A stretch of 64,000 nt of DNA from Sphingobacterium sp. SGR-19 (GTDB taxonomy: Bacteria > Bacteroidota > Bacteroidia > Sphingobacteriales > Sphingobacteriaceae), in NCBI RefSeq assembly GCF_011043555.1, contig NZ_JAAKGS010000001.1:186001-250000 (forward strand), in the 5' to 3' direction. The position numbers and the translations under genes were made by a program. How positions within the stretch are numbered: position 1 is the stretch's first letter; each line of letters starts with the position of its first letter. The notes under the pieces are model-generated. The model had not been told where the DNA came from. It did no database searches and saw only the letters and a program-made list of their open reading frames with translations. This document shows positions 30,663 to 45,177 of this stretch, piece after piece.

Positions 30663-30880
30663 TACTGTTTTTTAAAAACTAATAAAATTTGCTGCCAAAG
30701 ATATTATTTTTTTTGGTGTTAAGAGGCATGCGTTATTACTGAAATAGAGATATTTTAGGCCTGTTAGGAGAACCTGCACAAGCCATATTTTTTTGTAACT
30801 TGATTGTTGGAAAAAGGACTTAGTGTATTTTTTACAATATTATTCCTATATTTAATTCCGATTTATAAAAATCTAGATTA

Positions 30881-31864
30881 ATGACAATGCAAATTGTAAA
30901 GAACGGTGTGTTTATTTTTACGTTCATGGTGGCTAACCTCCTTTCAAAAGCACAGGAAAAGCACGAACGTTACATACAGAAAATAGAGGGAACAAACTTG
31001 GAGTTTTCCATGGAGGCAATTCCTGGTGGAACTTTTCTTATGGGGAGTGATAAATCTGATAAAGAGGATGAAAAGCCTGTCCATCAAGTGGAACTTGATC
31101 CGTTTTGGATGGGAACTTATGAAGTCACTTGGGATTTATATGAGCCTTTTGTATACAAGGATTTAGAGCAAACTATTACGATAGACGGTAAAGTTTCATC
31201 TGAAGTAGATGCCGTTACGCGGCCCACAAAACCTTATTTGGATATGACTTTCGGTATGGGTAAAGAAGGTCATCCTGCGCTAGCCATGACGCACTATAAT
31301 GCTATTCAGTTTTGTAAATGGCTTTATACGCGCACGGGCATGTTTTACCGCTTACCGACAGAAGCGGAATGGGAGTATGCATGTCGTGCGGGATCTACAA
31401 GTGAGTATTTCTTTGGTGACGATTCTGTTCAATTAGATGAATATGCTTGGTATGCAGCAAATAGTGGCGAAAAAACTGCTTCAGTAGGGACGAAGAAACC
31501 GAACGCTTGGGGTCTATACGATATGGCCGGAAACGTAGCTGAATGGACTTTTGACCAATATATACCTGATTATTACAAACGGTTTGAGAATAAAACTGCT
31601 AAAAATCCAGTTGCCGTACCCACGGAGCTTTATCCGCACAGCGTAAGAGGAGGATCTTTCGATAGCGGCGCTGGTCAGCTTAGGTCGGCTGCTCGTATGG
31701 CGTCGGATCCTATATGGAAGCAGTTGGATCCACAAATACCAAAATCTAATTGGTGGTTTCCCGAAGCGCCATTTGTTGGGCTACGTCTTGTTCGTCCAGT
31801 AAATCAACCGTCCCCAGAGGAAATTACAGCCTATTACAATCAGGAGCCTATAAAAGACTTTTAA
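30881..31864 (+). CDS. Exported SUMF1/FGE-fold protein lacking the active cysteines
   Basis: A 327-residue protein with a signal peptide (cleavage near SKAQ). The formylglycine-generating-enzyme fold is clear: AIPGGTFLMGSDKSDKEDEKPVHQVELDPFWMG, seen as GGTFLMGSD and PVHQVELDPFWMGTYEVT; RLPTEAEWEYACRAGS; NAWGLYDMAGNVAEW; and SVRGGSFDSGAG. In true FGE the last motif continues with two copper-binding cysteines (RGGSWxCxxxxC). Here those places are Ser and Gln/Leu, so oxidase activity is not expected. It opens an eight-gene operon. Confidence 0.85.
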   Translation: MTMQIVKNGVFIFTFMVANLLSKAQEKHERYIQKIEGTNLEFSMEAIPGGTFLMGSDKSDKEDEKPVHQVELDPFWMGTYEVTWDLYEPFVYKDLEQTITIDGKVSSEVDAVTRPTKPYLDMTFGMGKEGHPALAMTHYNAIQFCKWLYTRTGMFYRLPTEAEWEYACRAGSTSEYFFGDDSVQLDEYAWYAANSGEKTASVGTKKPNAWGLYDMAGNVAEWTFDQYIPDYYKRFENKTAKNPVAVPTELYPHSVRGGSFDSGAGQLRSAARMASDPIWKQLDPQIPKSNWWFPEAPFVGLRLVRPVNQPSPEEITAYYNQEPIKDF

Positions 31865-31889
31865 TAAATAAATTATAATACCTAAACTA

Positions 31890-33203
31890 ATGCAACATTT
31901 TAAAAGGAGAGATTTTATTAAGACAGGTTCAGTTCTATCAGGTGCGGCGATGTTATCCTCTATGCCAGTGTCCAATGTGTTTGCTGCGGGAAGCGATGTT
32001 ATCAAGATTGCGTTGATTGGATGTGGGGGACGTGGTACCGGCGCTACTTTTGACGCTTTTGCCTCAGGGCAAAATATTAAATTGGTCGCGATGGCAGATG
32101 CCTTTCAAGATAATTTGGAAAAGACCTACCAAACTATAAAAGAAAAGTTTGGCGATAAAGTGGACGTGCCGGACAGTCGTAAATATGTTGGGTTTGACGC
32201 TTATAAATCAGCCATTAAGGACGCCGATGTGGTATTGCTGACCACACCTCCGGGATTTCGACCCATACACTTTGAAGAAGCAGTAAAGGCAGGTAAGCAT
32301 GTCTTTATGGAGAAGCCCGTAGCAGTGGATATCCCGGGTATAAGAAAGGTGCTTGCGGCAGCCGAAGAAGCCAAAAGGAAGAAATTAAATGTAGTCGTCG
32401 GTTTACAACGGCGCTATCAGACAAATTATCGAGAAGCTATCAAACGTATACAGGATGGCGCGATCGGTGATGTTGTATCTGGACAGGTTTACTGGAATAG
32501 TGGAGGAGTATGGGTTCGCCCACGCAAACCGGAGCAAACCGAAATGGAGTACCAAATGCGAAATTGGTTTTATTTTAATTGGCTTTGTGGCGACCATATT
32601 GTCGAACAACATGTACATAACATTGATATCGCCAATTGGGTAAAAGGAAAGTATCCTGTTTCTATTCAAGGTACAGGAAGTAGGGCTCATCGTACAGGCA
32701 AAGATTATGGCGAAATTTATGACAACTTTGCCATTGAGCTCACATATGATGATGGTTCGGTGGTATATAGTCAGTGTAGACATTTTGAAGGTGTATCCAA
32801 TCGCGTGGACGAAACTTTTCAGGCGACAAACGGTCGTGCTTACCTTTCGGCGGGTAACCAAGCGGTATTATGGGATGCAAAGGGGAACGAAATATACCGT
32901 CATGATCCTAAAGGGAATCCAAATGCTTACCGACAGGAACATAAAGAGCTTTTTGCGGCGATAGCAAAAAACGAATACGCTTTTGACGATACGCAGCACG
33001 GGGCTTATAGCACACTCACAGGTATCATTGGTCGTATAGCTTGTTACACAGGCAAGGTAATCAAATGGGATGAAGCTATAACTTCAACGGTCGATTTATC
33101 CCCTAACGTTTACGCCTGGGATGCATTGCCTAATATCATTCCGAATGAAAATGGAGAATACCCTTATGCTATTCCGGGAAAAAACACGGAACTTTATATT
33201 TAA
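31890..33203 (+). CDS. Exported Gfo/Idh/MocA-family oxidoreductase (first of operon)
   Basis: A 437-residue protein with a Tat-like signal (KRRDFIKTGSVLSGAAML). The Rossmann motif is IALIGCGGRGTG near residues 40-51, HVFMEKPVAVD carries the family EKP motif near 135, and the C-terminal alpha/beta domain includes CGDHIVEQHVHNIDIANW near 230, with a His pair typical of the metal-free glycoside-processing group. NAD-dependent reversible oxidation at a sugar ring carbon is likely, either as a dehydrogenase or, with retained cofactor, as a glycosidase of the GH109 kind. apbE follows after 3 bp. Confidence 0.88.
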   Translation: MQHFKRRDFIKTGSVLSGAAMLSSMPVSNVFAAGSDVIKIALIGCGGRGTGATFDAFASGQNIKLVAMADAFQDNLEKTYQTIKEKFGDKVDVPDSRKYVGFDAYKSAIKDADVVLLTTPPGFRPIHFEEAVKAGKHVFMEKPVAVDIPGIRKVLAAAEEAKRKKLNVVVGLQRRYQTNYREAIKRIQDGAIGDVVSGQVYWNSGGVWVRPRKPEQTEMEYQMRNWFYFNWLCGDHIVEQHVHNIDIANWVKGKYPVSIQGTGSRAHRTGKDYGEIYDNFAIELTYDDGSVVYSQCRHFEGVSNRVDETFQATNGRAYLSAGNQAVLWDAKGNEIYRHDPKGNPNAYRQEHKELFAAIAKNEYAFDDTQHGAYSTLTGIIGRIACYTGKVIKWDEAITSTVDLSPNVYAWDALPNIIPNENGEYPYAIPGKNTELYI

Positions 33204-33206
33204 AAC

Positions 33207-34193
33207 GTGTTAAGGAATGTGTTCATATTATCTTTAATAACCTTAGGTTGTTTTGCTTATGGCCAACAACCTAAATTTATTATTAATGGACAGGCGCAGG
33301 GTACGTCTTACAGGATTCAATACTATGCACCAAATTCTATCGTTTCTAAAATAGAGATAGATAGTGTGCTGAACGTTATTGACCGGTCAATGTCGCTGTA
33401 TGACAAACAATCTCTCATATCGGCTTTTAATGGGGGGGATAAAAGTATAGTGTTGGATGACCACATGACGAATGTGGTCAAACGTTCGTTTGATTTGAAT
33501 CGTATCTCAAATGGGTTTTTTGACATCACCGTAATGCCTCTTGTAAGCTTGTGGGGATTTGGTCCGGATCGTATCAATACCTTTCCTCAACCGCAGACAA
33601 TCGATAGCATATTGCAGTTTGTAGGGATGGATAAACTTGTCTTAGATGGCAATATACTAATTAAGAAAGATAAAAGAGTGCAAGTAGATTTAAATGGGAT
33701 AGCACAGGGGTATTCTGTGGATGTTATTTCTCAGTTCATGGATAGTAGAGGTATTGGAAGCTATTTAGTTGAGTTAGGTGGAGAAATAAAAGTAAAAGGA
33801 TATAAGGATGTTAACATTCCTTTTGAAATTGCCATCGAAAGTCCGCGGAATGGAAAGTATTCGAATGTTATCCTGCAGTTGACGGATAAGGGGGTAACTA
33901 CATCCGGGAATTATAGACGAGCATTTGACTTGGAAGGACGTCGTATCCATCATCATATCAATCCACATGACGGTTATCCAGTACAGAATAATGTCGCCAG
34001 TGTAACGGTTATAGCACCCACAGCGATGGATGCTGATGGTTATGACAATGTATTTATGGCGATGACGCCAGAAGAAGGTGTAAATTTAGCAAATAGACTA
34101 AACGATATCGAAGTCTATATTATTTATAAGGATAACGACCGGTTTAAAGAAGCTTTTTCGACAGGTTTTTACCGGTATGTAAAGAATAATTAA
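33207..34193 (+). CDS. apbE: FAD:protein FMN transferase ApbE
   Basis: A 328-residue exported enzyme that attaches FMN covalently to Thr or Ser of target flavoproteins. A signal peptide ends near AYGQQ. Landmarks: GQAQGTSYRIQYYA, MSLYDKQSLIS, FFDITVMPLVSLWGFG, VQVDLNGIAQGYSVDVI, YLVELGGEIKVKG, and HHINPHDGYPV with metal-binding DGYDNVFM. The start is GTG, 3 bp after the previous stop. No protein in this window carries an obvious flavinylation motif, so its target is unidentified. Confidence 0.92.
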   Translation: MLRNVFILSLITLGCFAYGQQPKFIINGQAQGTSYRIQYYAPNSIVSKIEIDSVLNVIDRSMSLYDKQSLISAFNGGDKSIVLDDHMTNVVKRSFDLNRISNGFFDITVMPLVSLWGFGPDRINTFPQPQTIDSILQFVGMDKLVLDGNILIKKDKRVQVDLNGIAQGYSVDVISQFMDSRGIGSYLVELGGEIKVKGYKDVNIPFEIAIESPRNGKYSNVILQLTDKGVTTSGNYRRAFDLEGRRIHHHINPHDGYPVQNNVASVTVIAPTAMDADGYDNVFMAMTPEEGVNLANRLNDIEVYIIYKDNDRFKEAFSTGFYRYVKNN

Positions 34194-34211
34194 CCGATTA
34201 AATTTAATGTA

Positions 34212-35123
34212 ATGAAACGAGCAGATTTTATAAAAAGTGGTGCAGCGTTTATTGGAAGTACAGCTATTTTAGGTGATGAAATTATGGCAGCAACAAAACA
34301 AAATAAAGAAGGGGCAACCTTCCAATTAGATTATGCCCCGCATCAAGGTATGTTTTCAGCAACGGCAGGTAAAAACTTTGTGGACGAAATCAAATACATG
34401 CACGAATTGGGTTTTCGTAGTATCGAAGACAATGGTTTGCCAACCCGACCGGTCGAAGAGCAAGTGAAAGTGGGAGAGACCTTGGCAAAATTAGGTATGC
34501 GCATGGGCGTGTTTGTTGTACCAAAAGGTGGAAACGGAGCCAACACCCTGGCCGCGGGCAAACAGGAACATATTGATGTTTTCTTAAACGGATGTAAGCA
34601 ATCTGTGGAAGTCGCAAAACGTGTCAATGCCAAATGGGTGACCGTTGTTCCGGGAAATTATCAACGTAATCTACCTATAGGTGTGCAAACGGCTAACGTG
34701 ATTGAAGGGTTAAAACGTGGTGCCGAAATTTTTGAACCACATGGTATCACGATGGTATTGGAACCATTGAGCGATACGCCGGACTTATTTCTTCGTTACA
34801 CGGATCAAACATACGAGATCTGTAAGGCGGTAGGAAGTCCATCTTGTAAAATCTTATATGATGCATATCACCAACAAAAAAATGAAGGTAATCTCATCAA
34901 CCTTATGAATATGTGTTGGAGTGAAATTGCTTATATCCAAGTAGGAGATAACCCTGGAAGAAAAGAACCCACGACGGGAGAGATAAACTATAAAAATGTA
35001 TTTAAGTGGCTGAAAGAAAAGGGATATACAGGTGTTGTGGGGATGGAGCATGGCATGTCAAAATCGGGAGTAGAAGGCGAAAAGGCATTAGTAAACGCCT
35101 ATCGAGAAGTCGACAATTTTTAA
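34212..35123 (+). CDS. Exported hydroxypyruvate isomerase-like TIM-barrel protein
   Basis: A 303-residue AP-endonuclease-2/xylose-isomerase-like TIM barrel with a Tat-like N-terminus (MKRADFIKSGAAFIGSTAIL). Landmarks: YAPHQGMFSATAGKNF, LGFRSIEDNGL, KWVTVVPGNYQRNL, ITMVLEPL (metal Glu), KILYDAYHQQKNEGNL, IAYIQVGDNPGRKEP and GYTGVVGMEHGMS. The family isomerises or epimerises keto sugars, often with a divalent metal. Placement beside GMC and Gfo/Idh/MocA oxidoreductases supports action on a keto-sugar intermediate. Confidence 0.88.
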   Translation: MKRADFIKSGAAFIGSTAILGDEIMAATKQNKEGATFQLDYAPHQGMFSATAGKNFVDEIKYMHELGFRSIEDNGLPTRPVEEQVKVGETLAKLGMRMGVFVVPKGGNGANTLAAGKQEHIDVFLNGCKQSVEVAKRVNAKWVTVVPGNYQRNLPIGVQTANVIEGLKRGAEIFEPHGITMVLEPLSDTPDLFLRYTDQTYEICKAVGSPSCKILYDAYHQQKNEGNLINLMNMCWSEIAYIQVGDNPGRKEPTTGEINYKNVFKWLKEKGYTGVVGMEHGMSKSGVEGEKALVNAYREVDNF

Positions 35124-35181
35124 GCGTATTATATAATATAAAGGAGAAGTAATATATTTACATAAATAAACCTATTATCAG

Positions 35182-36423
35182 ATGTCAACATCCATAAGAT
35201 TTAAACTATCATTTATGATGTTCCTTGAATTCTTTATTTGGGGAGCGTGGTTCGTAACGTTAGGGAATTTTCTTCCTAATAATTTATCTGCAAATGAGAA
35301 TGAAATCTCAAATGTTTTCTCTACCCAATCGTTGGGTGCAATCATTGCGCCATTCATTATAGGGATGATTGCGGACAAATACTTCAATGCAGAGCGGATA
35401 TTGGGAATATTGCATCTAATCGGTGCGGTTTTGATGTTCCAGATGTATAATGCTACGGATATTGCCGTTTTTTATCCATATGTTTTGGTATATATGATCC
35501 TATATATGCCTACTTTGGCCCTGGTCAATTCGGTCTCTTTTCGTCAAATGTCAAACCCGGAGAAACAGTTTTCCAGTATTAGAGTTTGGGGAACGATAGG
35601 ATGGATATTAGCAGGTTTTGCGATTAGCTTCTTGGCTTGGGACTCCAAAGAGGGCATTGCCGAAGGACTGTTAAAAAATACATTTCTAATGGCTTCTATC
35701 GGTTCCCTAATTTTAGGATTATTCAGCTTTATTTTGCCTAAAACACCTCCTGTACAAAAAGATGGCGAGAAGAAGGGCAATGTTTCTGAAATATTAGGAT
35801 TAGACGCAATAAAGTTGCTCGGCAATAAGAACTTTTTAGTATTTTTCATCTCCTCTATCTTAATCTGTATCCCTTTAGGGTTTTACTATCAATTGACAAA
35901 TCGTTTTCTATCAGAAATAGGGATGGAGAATGTAACTGGAAAGATGGCAATCGGACAGGTTTCCGAAGCATTTTTCTTGCTATTACTTCCAGTCTTTTTT
36001 GTGCGTTTCGGATTTAAGAAAACCATTTTATTTGGGATGTTGGCTTGGGTCGTTCGCTATCTATTGTTTGCATATGGAGACGCCGGATCGGGCACATGGA
36101 TGTTATTGGTAGGAATTGCATTGCATGGTATCTGCTATGATTTCTTTTTCGTATCCGGACAGATTTATACCGATAGTAAGGCTGGGGCAAAATATAAAAG
36201 TTCTGCTCAAGGATTGATTACATTAGCAACTTACGGTGTCGGGCAGCTGATTGGCTTTCAGGTCGCTGGGATTGTCGCCAACTACTATTCAGATGCGAAT
36301 TCGGGAAACGTTGAACAGTTTTGGCAACAGGTCTGGCTAGTTCCTGCGGGAATCGCTTTACTAGTGATGATTTTGTTCATGTTGTTCTTTAAGAATGAAA
36401 AAATAGAAAATACAACTGCATAG
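35182..36423 (+). CDS. NHS/nucleoside-permease-type MFS transporter
   Basis: A 413-residue inner-membrane protein with about twelve hydrophobic segments. The N-terminus LSFMMFLEFFIWGAWFVTLG, seen as MFLEFFIWGAWFVTL, and IGMIADKYFNAERILGILHL are hallmarks of the nucleoside:H+ symporter (NupG/YegT) group; SFRQMSNPEKQFSSIRVWGTIGWI is the second landmark. In Bacteroidota such carriers often sit in sugar-oxidation operons and may carry sugars or keto sugars rather than nucleosides. The operon context suggests uptake of the product made in the periplasm. Confidence 0.85.
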   Translation: MSTSIRFKLSFMMFLEFFIWGAWFVTLGNFLPNNLSANENEISNVFSTQSLGAIIAPFIIGMIADKYFNAERILGILHLIGAVLMFQMYNATDIAVFYPYVLVYMILYMPTLALVNSVSFRQMSNPEKQFSSIRVWGTIGWILAGFAISFLAWDSKEGIAEGLLKNTFLMASIGSLILGLFSFILPKTPPVQKDGEKKGNVSEILGLDAIKLLGNKNFLVFFISSILICIPLGFYYQLTNRFLSEIGMENVTGKMAIGQVSEAFFLLLLPVFFVRFGFKKTILFGMLAWVVRYLLFAYGDAGSGTWMLLVGIALHGICYDFFFVSGQIYTDSKAGAKYKSSAQGLITLATYGVGQLIGFQVAGIVANYYSDANSGNVEQFWQQVWLVPAGIALLVMILFMLFFKNEKIENTTA

Positions 36424-36484
36424 GAAAACAAGAAAGATAGAGAGTAAAACAATATAAAAAACAAACAAAAAAAATAGAAAAGGT

Positions 36485-38167
36485 ATGGCAGATAATGTTT
36501 ATGATGCAATTGTCATCGGATCAGGCATCAGTGGTGGTTGGGCTGCAAAAGAACTTACGGAGAAGGGGCTGAAAACCATCATGCTGGAACGCGGAAGAAA
36601 CGTTGAGCATATAAAAGACTACCACGCGAATAAAAATACTTGGGAATATCCACATAGAGGAGGGCGTACCAAGCAAATGGAAGAAGATTATCCCGTATTG
36701 AAACGAGATTATCCATTGAATGAAAAAAATCTTGACTTTTGGGTAAACGAAAAAGAGAGTCCCTATACGGAAGTTAAGCGGTTTGACTGGTATCGTGGTT
36801 ATCATGTAGGAGGACGTTCTCTTATGTGGGGACGTCAAAGCTATCGTTTTTCTGATCTAGATTTTGAGGCAAATGTAAAAGACGGGCATGGTACAGATTG
36901 GCCTATTCGGTATGCTGATATCGCGCCATGGTATAGCTATGCGGAGAAATGGGCAGGTATTTCCGGTAACCGCGACGGTTTAGATGTATTGCCAGATGGT
37001 GATTTCCTGCCTCCCATGGATTTTAATGTTGTTGAGAAAGACCTAGCTGCTCGTTTACAAAAGGAATATGGTGGTAAACGCCATTTTATTATGGGACGTA
37101 CGGCTAATATCACCAAACCTCATACCGGTCGTGTTAATTGCCAATATCAAAATCAGTGTTGGTTAGGATGTAATTTCGGCGCTTATTTCAGTACACAATC
37201 TTCTACATTGCCACCGGCTATGGCAACGGGTAACTTAACACTTCGTCCGTTCTCTATCGTAACACGTATTCTATATGATAAGGATACTCAAAAGGCGACG
37301 GGAGTAGAGATTGTTGATGCCGAGACTAATAAAACGTATGAATTCCATGCAAAAGTGATCTTCGTATGTGCTTCGGCATTTAATTCAACGTGGGTATTGA
37401 TGAATTCAGCTACCGACGTTTGGGAAGGCGGTTTAGGCAGTAGCTCAGGCGAACTTGGCCACAACGCAATGGATCACCATTTCCGCTGTGGAGCTAGCGG
37501 AACTGTGGAAGGCTATGAGGACAAATATATTTTTGGACGACGTCCGACGGGATTATACGTACCTCGTTTTGTGAATGTACCTGGTGATGATAAAAAACGG
37601 GATTATGTTCGTGGATTCGGTTATCAAGGAGCTGCTAGCCGAGGAAGATGGTCCGGTGAGATTGCCGAAATGAGTGTTGGTGGCGATTGGAAAGATGCGA
37701 TGCTGGAACCAGGTAACTGGAGTATTGGCTTCGGTGCGTTTGGAGAGATATTGCCGTATCACGAGAATAGAATCTTCCTGGATAAGGATAAGAAAGATAA
37801 GTGGGGATTACCGGTATTGGCAATGGATATGGAAATCAAGGAAAACGAGTTAAAAATGCGTCCGGATATGATGGAGGAGATGAAAGAGATGCTGGAGAAA
37901 GTCGGTGTTAAAAATGTTAGGACTTATGATAACACCTATGGCTTTGGTCAAGGAATTCACGAAATGGGAACGGCCCGTATGGGAACAGACCCTAAAAATT
38001 CTGTGTTAAACAAGCATAATCAGGTTTGGGATGCGAAGAATGTATTCGTAACGGACGGTGCGGCAATGACATCAGGTGCTTGTGTGAACCCATCATTGAC
38101 TTATATGGCTTTAACGGCGCGTGCTGTGGATTTTGCCGTTAACGAGCTTAAAAAAGGAAATCTATAA
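36485..38167 (+). CDS. GMC-family FAD-dependent oxidoreductase
   Basis: A 560-residue enzyme. The FAD-binding motif VIGSGISGGWAAKEL is at residues 10-24, followed by TIMLERGR. GGRSLMWGRQSYR, CQYQNQCWLGCNFGAY and the C-terminal HEMGTARMGTDPKNSVLNKH with DGAAMTSGACVNPSLT are typical of the gluconate-2-dehydrogenase/glucoside-3-dehydrogenase branch. No signal peptide is seen, so export would be with its partner: the subunit-3-type gene in this operon has a twin-arginine leader. Oxidation of a sugar hydroxyl, possibly at C3, is the inferred reaction. Confidence 0.9.
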   Translation: MADNVYDAIVIGSGISGGWAAKELTEKGLKTIMLERGRNVEHIKDYHANKNTWEYPHRGGRTKQMEEDYPVLKRDYPLNEKNLDFWVNEKESPYTEVKRFDWYRGYHVGGRSLMWGRQSYRFSDLDFEANVKDGHGTDWPIRYADIAPWYSYAEKWAGISGNRDGLDVLPDGDFLPPMDFNVVEKDLAARLQKEYGGKRHFIMGRTANITKPHTGRVNCQYQNQCWLGCNFGAYFSTQSSTLPPAMATGNLTLRPFSIVTRILYDKDTQKATGVEIVDAETNKTYEFHAKVIFVCASAFNSTWVLMNSATDVWEGGLGSSSGELGHNAMDHHFRCGASGTVEGYEDKYIFGRRPTGLYVPRFVNVPGDDKKRDYVRGFGYQGAASRGRWSGEIAEMSVGGDWKDAMLEPGNWSIGFGAFGEILPYHENRIFLDKDKKDKWGLPVLAMDMEIKENELKMRPDMMEEMKEMLEKVGVKNVRTYDNTYGFGQGIHEMGTARMGTDPKNSVLNKHNQVWDAKNVFVTDGAAMTSGACVNPSLTYMALTARAVDFAVNELKKGNL

Positions 38168-38187
38168 CAGGCTTAATGTAATAAATT

Positions 38188-39615
38188 ATGATAGCAACAA
38201 ATAGTTCAAGGAGGAATTTTATAAAGAACGCTGCCTTAGCTGCAGCGGGCTTTATGATCGTTCCCCGTCATGTACTCGGCGGAAAAGGATTTGTAGCCCC
38301 AAGCGATAAATTATCTATCGCTGGAATAGGTGTCGGAGGCAAAGGTTACGGTGACATTATGTCTTTTCACAAAAGTGGGAAAGCAGAGATCGCTTTTTTA
38401 TGTGATGTAGACGACCGTCGTGCGGCCGGAGCGGTGAAAAACTTCCCGAAAGCGAAATATTATAGAGATTATCGGGAGATGTTGGACAACGAACACAAAC
38501 ATATAGATGCTGTTTCTATTTCTTCTCCAGACCATAATCATGCTATACAGACTTTAGCTGCAATGCAATTGGGGAAGCATGTATATGTACAAAAGCCCTT
38601 GACACATGATGTTTGGGAAGCGCGTGTGTTAACAGATGCTGCAAAGAAATATAAGGTCGTGACACAAATGGGAAACCAAGGAGCTTCCAACGATGGCCCT
38701 CGGGAAATCAGGGAATGGTATGAGGCAGGTCTGATAGGCGATGTGCATACCATTTACTGTTGGACCGACAGACCGGTATGGCCTTCAGGGATTCCATGGC
38801 CAACCCAAACTGCACCTGTGCCAAACGAGCTGGATTGGGATCTTTGGTTAGGAACGGCTCCGTATAAAGATTATATCGAAAAACTGGTGCCATTCAATTG
38901 GCGTGGTTGGTGGGATTACGGAACGGGCGCATTAGGCGATATGGGATGCCATCTTTTGGAAGTACCTTTTAGTACGTTAAATCTTCAATACGTACAGGAT
39001 GTACAGGCTACCGTAGGTACAATTTATGTGGACGAATTTAAACGGGGTTATTTCCCTGAAAGCTGCCCGCCGTCGAGCCACGTTACGATGACTTTCCCCA
39101 AAACCGAAAAAACAAGTGGACCAGTTACCTTGCATTGGATGGATGGCGGTATACAACCCGCTCGTCCAGACGAATTGGAACCTAATGAAGTTTTCGGTGA
39201 TGGCGGTAATGGTATTTTATTTGTCGGCACAAAAGGAAAATTATTGGCTGATACCTATGGCGATAACGCTCGATTGCTTCCTACTACCCGTAAAGAAAGT
39301 GTAGAACAGAAATACGCACGTGTTCCGGGTAAAGCAAGTGGTCACTATGCACAGTGGGTAGAAGCTTGTATCGCCGGATATGGAAATATGGAAGTCAGCG
39401 CACCGTTTGAGATTTCAGGTCCGCTTACCGAGGCTATTCTCATGGCGAATTTAGCAATCCGTGGTGCGGATCTCCAGGTAGATAATAAGTTCCCGGGCAG
39501 GAACCTCAAGTTATTATGGGACAAGGACGAAATGAAGGTAACCAACTTTGACATCGTAAATCAGTTTGTGAAACGGGAATATCGTCAAGGATGGGATATA
39601 AATTATAGTATTTAA
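38188..39615 (+). CDS. Exported Gfo/Idh/MocA-family oxidoreductase (second of operon)
   Basis: A 475-residue protein with a clear Tat signal (SSRRNFIKNAALAAAGFMIVP). Cofactor motif IAGIGVGGKGYGD near residues 44-56; VQKPLTHDVWEA replaces the usual EKP with QKP; QMGNQGASNDGPREIREWYEAG and DWDLWLGTAPYKDY are typical of the large Bacteroidota/Planctomycete branch; GALGDMGCHLLEVPFSTL follows. It is only distantly similar to the first Gfo/Idh/MocA protein of the operon. A role on a glycoside or keto-glycoside in the periplasm is inferred. Confidence 0.88.
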   Translation: MIATNSSRRNFIKNAALAAAGFMIVPRHVLGGKGFVAPSDKLSIAGIGVGGKGYGDIMSFHKSGKAEIAFLCDVDDRRAAGAVKNFPKAKYYRDYREMLDNEHKHIDAVSISSPDHNHAIQTLAAMQLGKHVYVQKPLTHDVWEARVLTDAAKKYKVVTQMGNQGASNDGPREIREWYEAGLIGDVHTIYCWTDRPVWPSGIPWPTQTAPVPNELDWDLWLGTAPYKDYIEKLVPFNWRGWWDYGTGALGDMGCHLLEVPFSTLNLQYVQDVQATVGTIYVDEFKRGYFPESCPPSSHVTMTFPKTEKTSGPVTLHWMDGGIQPARPDELEPNEVFGDGGNGILFVGTKGKLLADTYGDNARLLPTTRKESVEQKYARVPGKASGHYAQWVEACIAGYGNMEVSAPFEISGPLTEAILMANLAIRGADLQVDNKFPGRNLKLLWDKDEMKVTNFDIVNQFVKREYRQGWDINYSI

Positions 39616-39625
39616 TCTTAAGAAA

Positions 39626-40255
39626 ATGAATAGAAGAGAAGCGATTCAACGTGTAGCGATGCTTATCGGTGGCTCTGTTATAGGAGCTAACTTATTCTTA
39701 GAAGGATGTACAAGACCCGCCTCTAAGGATGTCGCGGTATTGTTCGAAAAAGATAAGATGAATTTTTTAGGTGATCTTGCTGAAGCAATTTTACCTAAAA
39801 CGTCAACACCCGGTGCCAAGGAAGCTGGTGTGGGCGAATTTATTCCAGTAATGATCCGTGACTGTTACGATCCACAAGATCAGAAAGCGTTCCTAGAAGG
39901 TTTAGATGGTGTAGACGATAGAGCGAAAAAGGAATTTGGTAAAAAATTCCAAGAGCTATCAAAAGAGGAACAATTGCAGTATGTCAATATGTTTGATAAA
40001 GAAGCCAAAGAATTTCAAAAAGAAAGAGGCGATAAGCAAAAGAAATTGAACGAAGACGCTGAAAAAAGTGGAAAGAATGCAAACGAAGTTGAACAGCTTC
40101 CAAACCATTTCTTTCACATGTTAAAACAATTAACATTGACGGGATTCTTTACTTCAGAAGTCGGCATGACGAAGGCACTACGTTACGTTAAAATTCCAGG
40201 AAAATACGATGGCAACTTTCCTTACAAAAAAGGGGACAGAGCATTTGCGTCATAA
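39626..40255 (+). CDS. Gluconate 2-dehydrogenase subunit 3-family protein
   Basis: A 209-residue small subunit. The N-terminus has a twin-arginine-like start (MNRREAIQRVAMLIGG) and a possible lipobox LEGC (C28). The core FLGDLAEAILPKTSTPGAKEAGVGEFIPVMIRDCY, seen as DLAEAILPKTSTPGAKEAG and FIPVMIRDCY, is the family signature. Between residues 90 and 155 there is a charged, Lys/Glu-rich insert. It should form the escort and membrane-targeting partner of the GMC subunit encoded two genes upstream. No cytochrome c subunit gene is present nearby. The operon ends here. Confidence 0.9.
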   Translation: MNRREAIQRVAMLIGGSVIGANLFLEGCTRPASKDVAVLFEKDKMNFLGDLAEAILPKTSTPGAKEAGVGEFIPVMIRDCYDPQDQKAFLEGLDGVDDRAKKEFGKKFQELSKEEQLQYVNMFDKEAKEFQKERGDKQKKLNEDAEKSGKNANEVEQLPNHFFHMLKQLTLTGFFTSEVGMTKALRYVKIPGKYDGNFPYKKGDRAFAS

Positions 40256-40293
40256 CAAAGTGTATTATCTATACAACTGTGGATTTACAAAGT

Positions 40294-40330
40294 ATCCAAA
40301 CAGGGTTAAACCTTGTTTGGATGTTTTTTT
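40294..40330 (+). terminator. Terminator of the GMC/Gfo operon
   Basis: ATCCAAACAGGG, loop TTAAA, CCTTGTTTGGAT: a 12-bp stem with one G-T pair, followed by a seven-T run. Confidence 0.9.
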
Positions 40331-40485
40331 ATAAATAGATGACTGTTGTTACAAATAAATGTTAAAATCAAGCAATAATGTAAAGAATTTGTTGTTATGT
40401 ATAAAACGTCAAAGTCAATATTTATATTTAATAATACGTTAAAAGTTTATTTGACTGGATTATACAAAACAAAAATTATTGATAT

Positions 40486-41366: not shown

Positions 41367-42943
<1,577 letters not shown>

Positions 42944-42992
42944 TATAAGTAAAAACGGCTTTTGAGACAATCAAAAGCCGTTTTTACTTATA
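42944..42992 (-). terminator. Terminator of the cys operon
   Basis: An unusually long perfect stem: 22 bp (from TATAAGTAAAAACGG to CTTTTGA and its complement) with a GACAA loop. Either strand gives a T-run within the stem. It lies 15 bp after the cysN stop. Confidence 0.9.
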
Positions 42993-43006
42993 ATATTTAT
43001 TTTAAA

Positions 43007-44251
43007 TTATGCCACATTTTCAATCATAACAGCACCTACTGTCAAATTCGTTCTAGGATCAATTAATATGGCTTGCGAATTTTCGGGGAAATCCTGATGG
43101 AGATCAAATACAACTTCGTCAGCGGCTTTGATTCCAATTTTACCAATATCATTTAACCGAATATCTTCATCATATTGTTTTTCCTGCGTATTGACATCAT
43201 ATTTATACAAAATCTCCGTCACCTTAACTTTGGTAAGTGTACTATGATTTTGTAGTAAATACACCTGATTCGTATCCAATGATTTATTATCGAACCAACA
43301 AATATTAGCCTCAAAATTTCTTTCTGCTAATGCTGGATGGCTAGCTGACACCAGAATATCGCCTCGTGAAATATCGATATCATCTGTTAGATGAACAATA
43401 ACGGATTGTCCGTTTGGTGCATGATCTAACTGTTGTTCGGCCAGTTCAATACTTTCTACCGCACTTCTTACACCACTTGGCAATACAATAACCTCCTCTC
43501 CCTTCTGTAAGCCATCACCTAAGACACGTCCAGCATACCCTCTATAGTCGTGCAAATCCTCTGTCTGTGGACGTACCACCCACTGTACTGAAAGACGCCA
43601 CGGCTGTAGCTTTTTATCCTCTATGTTGACTGTTTCCAGATAATCTAATAATGAAGATCCAGTATACCAAGGTGTTCTTTCTGAGCGATGTACTATATTA
43701 TCCCCCTTTAAAGCAGAAACAGGAATAAAGTCAATATTTTCAAGTCCCAATCGTTCTGCCAAAGCCAAATAATCAGCTTTGATCTTTTCATAAACAAATG
43801 GATCAAATCCAACCATGTCCATTTTATTGACACAAACAAGCACTTTCTTCAATGACAATAATTTTGCTAAAAATGAGTGACGTTTAGTTTGCTCAATAAC
43901 CCCTTTGCGTGCATCAATTAAAATGATAATCAATTCCGAATTTGACGCGCCAGTCACCATATTACGTGTATACTGGATGTGTCCGGGGGCATCTGCGATA
44001 ATGAATTTCCTCTTTTCTGTTTGAAAGTATTTATATGCTACATCAATGGTAATACCTTGTTCCCGCTCGGCTTTTAGACCATCGGTCAATATAGCTAGGT
44101 CAACGGTTCCATCGTTGTTTTTACGATTAGCCTTTGTTATCGCTTCTAATTGATCGTCTAAAATTGAGTTTGTATCATATAGTAAGCGTCCGATTAGGGT
44201 GCTTTTACCGTCATCTACAGAGCCTGCTGTTATAAATTTCAGTATGTTCAT
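43007..44251 (-). CDS. cysN: Sulfate adenylyltransferase subunit 1 (GTPase)
   Basis: A 414-residue EF-Tu-like GTPase that drives APS formation with CysD. The G domain carries GSVDDGKSTLIGRLLYD at residues 10-26, DAPGHIQY and NKMD; two beta-barrel domains follow from about residue 220. There is no C-terminal APS kinase domain and no cysC in the operon, which agrees with the direct APS-reductase route encoded upstream. It is last in the operon. Confidence 0.95.
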   Translation of the reverse strand: MNILKFITAGSVDDGKSTLIGRLLYDTNSILDDQLEAITKANRKNNDGTVDLAILTDGLKAEREQGITIDVAYKYFQTEKRKFIIADAPGHIQYTRNMVTGASNSELIIILIDARKGVIEQTKRHSFLAKLLSLKKVLVCVNKMDMVGFDPFVYEKIKADYLALAERLGLENIDFIPVSALKGDNIVHRSERTPWYTGSSLLDYLETVNIEDKKLQPWRLSVQWVVRPQTEDLHDYRGYAGRVLGDGLQKGEEVIVLPSGVRSAVESIELAEQQLDHAPNGQSVIVHLTDDIDISRGDILVSASHPALAERNFEANICWFDNKSLDTNQVYLLQNHSTLTKVKVTEILYKYDVNTQEKQYDEDIRLNDIGKIGIKAADEVVFDLHQDFPENSQAILIDPRTNLTVGAVMIENVA

Positions 44252-44286
44252 TTTTCAATATTCTTTATTCCTTATTCCCTTATCGG

Positions 44287-45177
44287 TTAAAAATATCCTT
44301 GTTTTTTACGCTCTTCCATCGCGGCTTCAGAAACTTTGTCGTCCATCCGCGCTCCTCTTTCGCTGACGGTCGAAGCTTTAATTTCTGCGATGATGTCGTC
44401 AAGTTCAATCGCAACCGAATCTACTGCTGCTGTACAGGTCATGTCGCCTACGGTTCTGAAACGCACCGATTTATGCTCAACGATATCTTCTCCGTCGATA
44501 TGTAAAAATGGTGCTGCCGCCATCCATTGTCCGTTTCGTAACACCACATCACGTTCATGGCTGAAGTATATCGAAGGCAACGCTATATTCTCCCGTTTGA
44601 TATAGTTCCAAACATCCAGTTCTGTCCAATTCGAGATAGGAAATACCCTTACATTTTCACCCTTATGGATTTTTCCATTTAAGATGTTCCAAAGTTCCGG
44701 ACGTTGGCGTTTTGGATCCCATTGACCAAACTCATCACGTACGGAAAAAATACGTTCTTTTGCCCTAGCTTTTTCCTCGTCTCTCCGAGCCCCTCCTATA
44801 CAGGCGTCAAAGCCGTACTTTTCGATGGTATCCAAAAGTGTCACAGTTTGCAATGCATTACGGCTGGCATTTTTTCCTTTTTGTTCGACTGCTTTTCCTT
44901 GATCGATGCTTTCCTGTACTAATCCAACAATGAGTTTCTCTCCTAGCTGCTCGACCAACCAATCTCTAAATTCAATCGTCTCTGGAAAATTGTGTCCAGT
45001 GTCGATATGCACCAATGGAAAAGGAAATTTGCCCGGGCGAAATGCTTTCTTCGCTAAATGCACCAACGTTATCGAATCTTTGCCTCCTGAAAACAAAAGC
45101 GCAGGATTCTCGAATTGGCCCGCTACCTCACGCAGGATATATATCGCCTCCGCTTCTAAATGATCTAAATAATCCAT
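44287..45177 (-). CDS. cysD: Sulfate adenylyltransferase subunit 2
   Basis: A 296-residue ATP-pyrophosphatase-type enzyme forming APS from sulfate and ATP. The PP-loop is LLFSGGKDSITL; LVHIDTGHNFPET, GARRDEEKARAKERIFSVRD and DVWNYIKRENIALPSIYFSHERDV follow. The ATG giving MDYLDHLEAEAIYILREVA matches where CysD proteins usually begin. An in-frame ATG at 45219 and a GTG at 45228 would add 14 to 17 residues and overlap the cysH stop; they cannot be excluded. Confidence 0.94.
   Translation of the reverse strand: MDYLDHLEAEAIYILREVAGQFENPALLFSGGKDSITLVHLAKKAFRPGKFPFPLVHIDTGHNFPETIEFRDWLVEQLGEKLIVGLVQESIDQGKAVEQKGKNASRNALQTVTLLDTIEKYGFDACIGGARRDEEKARAKERIFSVRDEFGQWDPKRQRPELWNILNGKIHKGENVRVFPISNWTELDVWNYIKRENIALPSIYFSHERDVVLRNGQWMAAAPFLHIDGEDIVEHKSVRFRTVGDMTCTAAVDSVAIELDDIIAEIKASTVSERGARMDDKVSEAAMEERKKQGYF

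Follow-up and report, generated by a model that had tools for sequence, protein, structure and literature searches.

Through sequence analysis of a 64,000-nucleotide stretch of the Sphingobacterium sp. SGR-19 genome (contig NZ_JAAKGS010000001.1, positions 186,001 to 250,000; hereafter the window), an operon of eight genes, named A to H, has been delimited. All eight open reading frames (ORFs) lie on the + strand, span exactly positions 30881-40255 of the window and score above a Pfam cut-off; the intergenic gaps from A to H are successively 25, 3, 18, 58, 61, 20 and 10 bp. The original prediction, made from the letters alone, had described eight closely spaced same-strand genes for periplasmic keto-sugar chemistry that end at one strong terminator, and the ORFs, their gaps of 3-61 bp and the assignment of a family to every gene confirm this layout. 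The operon may constitute an envelope keto-glycoside module in which the ApbE-type protein C attaches flavin mononucleotide (FMN) to an exported redox protein encoded elsewhere in the genome. The features of the locus are as follows (FAD, flavin adenine dinucleotide; FGE, formylglycine-generating enzyme; MFS, major facilitator superfamily; Tat, twin-arginine translocation):

30789..30880, + strand: leader/promoter region, carrying TTGTAACTTGATTGTTG at 30793, of the form TGTAAC-N6-GTT(A/G)
30881..31864, + strand: A, FGE-fold (SUMF1-like) protein with a signal-like start, 327 amino acids (PF03781, 150 bits)
31890..33203, + strand: B, Tat-exported Gfo/Idh/MocA oxidoreductase, 437 amino acids (PF01408/PF22725)
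33207..34193, + strand: C, ApbE-type FAD:protein FMN transferase, 328 amino acids, GTG start (PF02424)
34212..35123, + strand: D, xylose-isomerase-like TIM barrel, probably exported, 303 amino acids (PF01261)
35182..36423, + strand: E, nucleoside:H+ symporter-type MFS permease, 413 amino acids (PF03825, 389 bits)
36485..38167, + strand: F, GMC catalytic subunit, no evident signal peptide, 560 amino acids (PF05199/PF00732)
38188..39615, + strand: G, Tat-exported Gfo/Idh/MocA enzyme near the BT_2158 glycoside 3-dehydrogenases, 475 amino acids (NF058561)
39626..40255, + strand: H, gluconate 2-dehydrogenase subunit-3-like protein with a Tat signal, 209 amino acids (PF13618, 135 bits)
about 40290-40332, + strand: intrinsic terminator hairpin with a T run (from sequence and fold)

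About 90 bp upstream of A are strongly conserved across ten genomes, whereas the DNA farther upstream diverges. By eye, the TGTAAC-N6-GTT(A/G) core is also found before A in loci L026, L029, L031, L034 and L039 and before D in L032, L033 and L035, where the operon is split; in its exact form it was not seen before the operon in L037, L046 and L048. We infer an operator role for the core, which resembles a CRP-family operator. The hairpin behind H has up to 17 pairs, the outer of which involve the tail, and is followed by seven T (-25.2 kcal/mol for the 75 nucleotides folded); the automatic terminator scan of the window did not list it. A strong hairpin occurs 3' of H in 14/14 loci folded (the window included), with the T run weak or missing in L017, L019 and L023. 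The predicted single strong terminator is therefore upheld, and by its anatomy, a conserved leader and a constant hairpin, the operon appears as one transcription unit.

With H as the query, 79 loci were fetched, and 37 of them were counted as holding the operon, the rule being an identity of 55% or more for D or of 60% or more for B. The full set in the same order was recovered by ORF calling in 28/37 loci, and tblastn restores a single missing gene in L025, L030, L042 and L049, giving 32/37; the gene order is thus not due to chance. The exceptions are L026, which lacks C, L057, which lacks C and G, and L032, L033 and L035, which lack A-B-C in cis. In the latter three, A-B-C stands elsewhere in the genome as a unit of its own (L124-L126), divergent in 3/3 species from a 428-residue Gfo gene (broken in L126) and a DUF1080 gene; a neighbouring gene pair is presumably SusC/SusD-like, judging from size and sequence. 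Orthologues of this Gfo (70% identity) and this DUF1080 protein (73%) are encoded on two other contigs of the SGR-19 genome. This placement of the split unit links C and B with keto-glycoside genes even without reference to D-H. In most loci C is the least identical of the eight genes, and E is found in 37/37. As to taxonomy, 34/37 loci are labelled Sphingobacterium and the rest are Parapedobacter, Rhinopithecimicrobium and one Bacteroidetes genome; S. multivorum (L129) and S. siyangense (L130) also have the operon. In L129 (5595-7643) A is broken and adjoins a 511-residue ORF, which we take by resemblance for a transposase, and the matches to B-H then follow in order. A plasmid search with window positions 42000-44300 gave no match.

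The dehydrogenase pair is formed by F and H, with G between them, and both members of the predicted combination of a GMC enzyme with a Tat-exported subunit 3 are thus present. Residues H492 and N535 of F, the GMC His and Asn, are conserved in 38/38 sequences, and the nearest solved structures are the large subunits of FAD-dependent fructose and glucose dehydrogenases. The twin arginine of H is kept in 38/38, together with a conserved lipobox-like LEGC. Since F has no evident signal peptide and H has a Tat signal, H is likely the export partner of F, which would cross the membrane by hitch-hiking. Three more GMC/subunit-3 pairs occur in this genome (L093, L094 and L096, on contigs C27, C28 and C31); their GMC subunits are 32-47% identical to F.

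The two exported Gfo/Idh/MocA enzymes are dissimilar, as had been claimed. B carries RR in 35/35 sequences, as well as the E-K of its EKP motif (35/35), and its nearest relatives among solved structures are aldose-aldose oxidoreductase 5a02 and also glucose-fructose oxidoreductase (GFOR); its structure model was not used (predicted local distance difference test, pLDDT, 53.6). G carries RR in 37/37 and matches PDB entries 8tdf and 8tdh with 322 and 313 bits. These scores, the below-cut-off score of G on the BT_2158 model and the relatives of F in DUF1080-containing clusters support keto-sugar chemistry at the level of families. Of the remaining genes, the predicted nucleoside-symporter-type carrier, ApbE and FGE-fold protein were recovered with the Pfam scores given here for E, C and A. 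On TIGR00889, E reaches 372.8 bits, below the cut-off of 446.1, and A reaches no NCBIfam cut-off. Formylglycine-generating enzymes have a catalytic Cys pair near a C-terminal RGGS segment; the only cysteines of A are Cys145 and Cys168, neither of them near its RGGS at 256.

For the exported TIM barrel D, the family stands, while Tat export is only likely, because its start contains KR within 25 residues in 33/37 sequences and RR in 0/37. The structure model of D (pLDDT 79) matches the hydroxypyruvate-isomerase-like group best (VIA Z 26.9 to 3ngf and 26.4 to 1k77), followed by tagatose epimerases (Z 25.7) and the 3-keto-D-glucoside 4-epimerase YcjR, 6wn6 (Z 25.4; 2.7 A over 248 residues). As these top matches to isomerases, epimerases and YcjR are nearly tied, we describe D as a metal-dependent isomerase or epimerase of keto-sugars and nothing narrower. 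Residues E184, D217 and E279 are invariant in 26 aligned sequences and Q243 is found in 37/37 near orthologues; aligned with the TIM barrels from the more distant clusters, D shows no more than 23-27% identity.

Homologues of F with 69-73% identity are encoded on plasmids of Xanthomonas, Hymenobacter and Ketogulonicigenium (three opened). The Xanthomonas cluster comprises a TIM barrel, GMC, subunit 3, DUF1080, cytochrome c, isomerase, Gfo, nucleoside permease, a further isomerase and LacI; the Hymenobacter cluster is similar, with SusCD and GH65 in addition, and that of Ketogulonicigenium has GMC, subunit 3, isomerases and Gfo, with neither DUF1080 nor cytochrome c in view. What the window operon shares with these clusters is a core of GMC, subunit 3, TIM barrel, permease and Gfo; A, B and C come in addition. 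It had been stated that a DUF1080-type lyase is missing. This holds in cis only, none of the eight genes matching PF06439; elsewhere in the genome nine matches fall in seven ORFs, and DUF1080 matches occur in 36/36 operon genomes searched, with 5 to 18 each. One locus of this genome (L095, 6607-12440) encodes a Gfo (426 amino acids), a double DUF1080 protein (463), a BT_2158-like Gfo (471) and a sulfatase. The absence of a cytochrome c subunit gene from the operon is likewise confirmed by Pfam. Seven PF13442 matches lie elsewhere in the genome, none of them an evident orthologue of three cluster cytochromes c (best match E 3e-7, 33% over 103 residues; PF00034 was not searched). Of the proposed alternatives, a differing route or parts located elsewhere, the second thus holds for DUF1080, and either may apply to the electron acceptor.

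Three points were not part of the original prediction: C, the only ApbE found, has no known target family in this genome, A-B-C can stand apart beside Gfo and DUF1080 genes, and a plausible ApbE target is encoded in trans. C scores 260.6 bits on PF02424 against a cut-off of 25.6 and 199 bits against the solved ApbE 6nxi, and it is the only ApbE match found in this genome, which is 99.7% complete. Four profile searches, for FMN_bind, NqrB/RnfD, DUF2271 and DUF3570, gave no match in this genome. A single ApbE match is found in 13/36 operon genomes (their genomic places were not checked singly). The lone ApbE of the genome of L057, the locus without C and G, is not C but belongs to another type, with neighbours that we name PepSY-like and DUF2271-like by resemblance. 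PMC12052999 gives a conserved Ser-His-Asp as the ApbE active site. Among C orthologues, His250 and Asp277 are found in 31/31 and Ser233 in 23/31; C of the window has all three. Residue 281, in the metal-site segment, is Asn in 30/31 orthologues and Thr in 6nxi and six ApbEs of other types, and the clade of C has GIAQGYSVD where other ApbE types have a GIGKGYA-type segment.

ApbE recognises the acceptor motif D-x-x-[S/T]-G-A-[S/T], according to PMC12052999. No conserved motif of this form occurs in A-H, and canonical flavinylation of the operon's own proteins was accordingly rejected. G has a conserved Q-G-A-S without the upstream Asp and the S/T of the motif, and the only [S/T]GA[S/T] in B is the TGAT of its nucleotide-binding loop, the last residue of which is Thr in 22/35. 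A codon-degenerate scan of the genome (TCN/ACN only for Ser/Thr) found the motif 15 times and its reversal 4 times; six of the 15 fall in ORFs of at least 149 residues. One of these six is a Tat-exported Gfo/Idh/MocA protein on contig C27, at about 333025-334245, with an exact DGVTGAT, VVDGVTGATLLN. The other five are an alkaline phosphatase, where the motif may be the enzyme's own active-site segment, as we presume, a TonB receptor, a LiaF-like membrane protein, glutamate synthase and a familyless ORF of 149 residues. By Pfam, the C27 Gfo is the sole exported oxidoreductase among the six.

Proteins related to the C27 Gfo are found beside ApbE genes in other genomes. In Mucilaginibacter, an exported Gfo with TIDGVTGATRIVW is encoded 12 bp downstream of a C-like ApbE gene, and on a Spirosoma plasmid an ApbE gene lies 20 bp after a motif-bearing Gfo. 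In the other five of six opened plasmid relatives no strict motif was found in the scanned Gfo ORFs; for Parabacteroides and Granulicella, the region viewed also shows no ApbE. When 395 genomes of the class were searched at E<=1e-50, 15 gave a match, this one included. The class-search matches, together with L132 and L152 and minus L186 (no motif, short ApbE), constitute a subfamily of 16 members, 15 of which have the strict motif, the C27 Gfo among them; the remaining one reads DGVAGAT. Of 150 distinct Gfo-like ORFs in the examined loci, 15 carry the motif, all in the subfamily, and none of the 134 others, which include 37 B orthologues and 51 G orthologues (at least 60% identity) and are not independent, since the sampling of loci centred on this operon. 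Averaged over the seven motif columns, the most frequent residue has a share of 91%, compared with 60% over the whole protein, and this window ranks third of 400 for conservation. An ApbE of the C clade lies at most 20 bp from the motif-Gfo in three loci (L132, L152 and L174), and in L173 the distance is 3.4 kb; as L132 was chosen for having such an ApbE and L152 for its likeness to L132, the unbiased neighbours are L173 and L174 only (2/14 class loci other than this genome's own). C and the ApbEs neighbouring motif-Gfo genes form one clade (support 0.93, midpoint-rooted FastTree) apart from other types. In 8/16 loci, DUF1080 and a second exported Gfo stand beside the motif-Gfo, seven of them on the same strand.

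The following scheme is proposed. F, exported through the Tat signal of H, would oxidise a glycoside, probably at C3, and hand its electrons on. G, and probably B, would act as exported nicotinamide enzymes that shuttle hydride between glycosides and keto-sugars, and D, using a metal ion, would isomerise or epimerise the keto-sugar. The keto-glycoside would be split by DUF1080 enzymes from other loci, and E would import the product. The FMN acceptor of C would be an exported redox protein, for which the C27 Gfo with its DGVTGAT is the best candidate in this genome; this Gfo would become an enzyme with nicotinamide adenine dinucleotide (NAD) plus FMN, the bound NADH of which could be reoxidised outside the cytosol. 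Gene order, families, conservation, the motif and the single ApbE found are observed; the C3 regiochemistry, every reaction, the flavinylation and the electron path we infer. From sequence evidence, an exported Gfo/Idh/MocA protein, acting here in trans, is the most likely target of C. To the whole, a keto-glycoside module in which C flavinylates an exported redox protein with the C27 Gfo as best candidate, we assign an even chance. In general terms, exported Gfo/Idh/MocA proteins may be a new class of ApbE substrates, with tightly bound NAD(P) and covalent FMN on DGV(T/S)GA(T/S), through which the hydride leaves; this wider proposition we hold with moderate confidence.

Several observations weigh against this scheme. 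With regard to C and its target: (i) the catalytic Ser position of ApbE is Ala in 8/31 C orthologues; (ii) AGY serines were missed by the genome scan, and the 149-residue motif ORF has a signal-like start and no Pfam family; (iii) the motif-Gfo lies outside the operon on another contig, B lacks the motif loop, and it is A and B, rather than the motif-Gfo, that C moves together with; (iv) a C-clade ApbE is nearby in only 4/16 motif-Gfo loci; (v) the two other genomes of the same genus listed in the class search have no motif-Gfo at its threshold, though C is kept in 32/37 loci, and C may for this reason have another target. With regard to the sugar chemistry, G scores 487.4 bits on the BT_2158 model NF058561 and does not reach the curated cut-off of 750, and none of the eight genes encodes a cytochrome c. 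Because of the three other pairs of the F/H type in the genome, F/H may act on another substrate.

The alternative that survives best, unlikely but a serious contender, is an ordinary glycoside 3-dehydrogenase operon like LacABC, in which F/H oxidise disaccharides, DUF1080 proteins acting in trans hydrolyse the 3-keto product, D, G and B recycle the 3-keto-hexose, and C and A are co-transcribed but unrelated housekeeping passengers. The relatives of F and H do sit in such clusters, DUF1080 is present in every operon genome searched, and the low identity of C agrees with a passenger. According to PMC9007349, a putative lactose dehydrogenase of this type is important to Pedobacter when it grows on lactose, salicin and further glycosides; the same source proposes DUF1080 proteins as 3-keto hydrolases. 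However, A-B-C stays together where the operon is split (3/3 species), C persists in most loci, and a housekeeping C would need targets, four known families of which are unmatched in this genome. The Pedobacter data, the relatives of F in DUF1080 clusters and the DUF1080 counts also speak for the scheme proposed above.

An epimerisation in the envelope without cleavage, as in the YcjQ/R/S route with its roles for YcjQ and YcjS, is unlikely. Here one Gfo would oxidise C3, D would epimerise at C2 or C4 and the other Gfo would reduce, F/H priming the cycle with keto-sugar, and the product would be a different glycoside. This fits a gene set in which a single metal-dependent TIM barrel lies between two exported, mutually dissimilar Gfo enzymes, the match of D to YcjR and ketose 3-epimerases, and the invariance of Glu184 and Glu279, the pair of a two-base enediol mechanism. 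Yet the best matches of D are hydroxypyruvate-isomerase-like, at most 1.5 Z from YcjR, and the relatives of F, D and G adjoin DUF1080 genes, which indicates cleavage.

We also consider it improbable that a non-canonical site of B or A is modified by C. In favour of this, no more than 16 bp separate C from B in the listed operon loci, and in Bacteroides, two Persicobacter and a further genome a short ApbE type, described below, is encoded beside or near exported Gfo enzymes that share an (A/G)-G-x-S-W loop and have no canonical motif. B lacks this loop altogether, and its only [S/T]GA[S/T], as stated, is the nucleotide loop with a variable final Thr. The least probable, and quite doubtful, is a role of D as a beta-eliminase that releases the aglycone after oxidation by F/G, with DUF1080 as hydratase or dispensable: in PMC10628242, AtOGE is likewise a TIM-barrel 'sugar phosphate isomerase', whose operon in A. 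tumefaciens also encodes a Gfo reductase and a flavin glycoside 3-dehydrogenase, but it uses His132/Asp163/His189 and the catalytic His134, where D has Glu/Asp/Gln/Glu. Matched by motif and not by superposition, Glu184 of D takes the place of the ligand His132, with Leu two residues on, and these differences make D a weaker candidate for the lyase that is missing. The 50 structural matches listed for D do not include AtOGE, an absence that excludes nothing.

Among known systems, the operon resembles the Bacteroides BT2156-BT2159 route (BT_2158_fam, BT_2159_fam), a 3-keto-glycoside route reportedly described in a 2024 Nature paper, through its BT_2158-like exported Gfo, its TIM barrel and the DUF1080 genes of the genome; it differs in that G stays under the model cut-off and in the addition of the flavin dehydrogenase F/H and of ApbE. 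With LacABC of Caulobacter, and putatively of Pedobacter, as outlined in PMC9007349, it shares GMC and subunit 3, epimerase, reductase and transporter genes, the likeness being drawn through the Xanthomonas and Hymenobacter plasmid homologues of F (the Caulobacter LacA sequence was not compared). In contrast to LacABC, it has no cytochrome c or DUF1080 gene in cis and adds ApbE, the FGE-fold protein and a second exported Gfo; as no cytochrome c subunit is encoded with F/H, it is considered related to LacABC and not a member. The Agrobacterium GlycDH-AtOGE-AtHYD-Gfo operon (PMC10628242) shares the flavin glycoside dehydrogenase, TIM barrel and Gfo reductase; D, however, lacks the AtOGE His residues, and A-D, G and H have export-like starts here. 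Extracytosolic flavin-transfer sets (ApbE with FMN_bind, DUF2271/PepSY or DUF3570; PMC8238504) have in common the exported ApbE and the motif D-x-x-[S/T]-G-A-[S/T], whereas the candidate target here belongs to the Gfo/Idh/MocA oxidoreductases. In PMC8238504, PMC11334425 and PMC12052999 the word Gfo does not occur. The literature search, which leaves most subscription papers outside, found no paper that joins ApbE with Gfo or DUF1080 in a relevant way; the papers that matched the terms included a seaweed expression study and an Enterococcus proteome study.

The closest solved relatives of B, the periplasmic GFOR and aldose-aldose oxidoreductase, are Tat-exported Gfo proteins and redox-neutral two-sugar enzymes; compared with GFOR, an FMN exit for the electrons is proposed here, for a further Gfo. 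To our knowledge, the Gfo/Idh/MocA family is not known to carry flavin, and we know of only one answer to how an extracytosolic nicotinamide enzyme can turn over without free NAD, namely redox-neutral use of two sugars. As such a redox-neutral case, DgpA works with 3-oxo-glucose (PMC11239390). Tat-signal Gfo/Idh/MocA enzymes recur in the Bacteroidota sugar loci examined. Covalent FMN placed by ApbE, if true, would be a different answer: nicotinamide enzymes could act as true dehydrogenases outside the cytosol, with electrons passing to the respiratory chain, and the recurrence of ApbE with Gfo and DUF1080 genes in Bacteroidota, this operon included, would be explained. The operon itself is a variant on the known glycoside 3-dehydrogenase theme, and the proposed flavin-carrying Gfo would be the new part.

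A second, short ApbE type is encoded together with two exported Gfo genes and DUF1080 in Bacteroides finegoldii and on two Persicobacter plasmids; one of these three loci is unannotated, its ApbE being assigned by Pfam and its DUF1080 by resemblance only. In L186, from one genome of the class, an ApbE gene stands directly before Gfo. The Gfo enzymes associated with the short ApbE (L153, L154, L155 and L186) have no canonical motif and share (A/G)-G-x-S-W at its place. On the wider proposition made above, the second ApbE type with its (A/G)-G-x-S-W loop would be an independent version of Gfo flavinylation.

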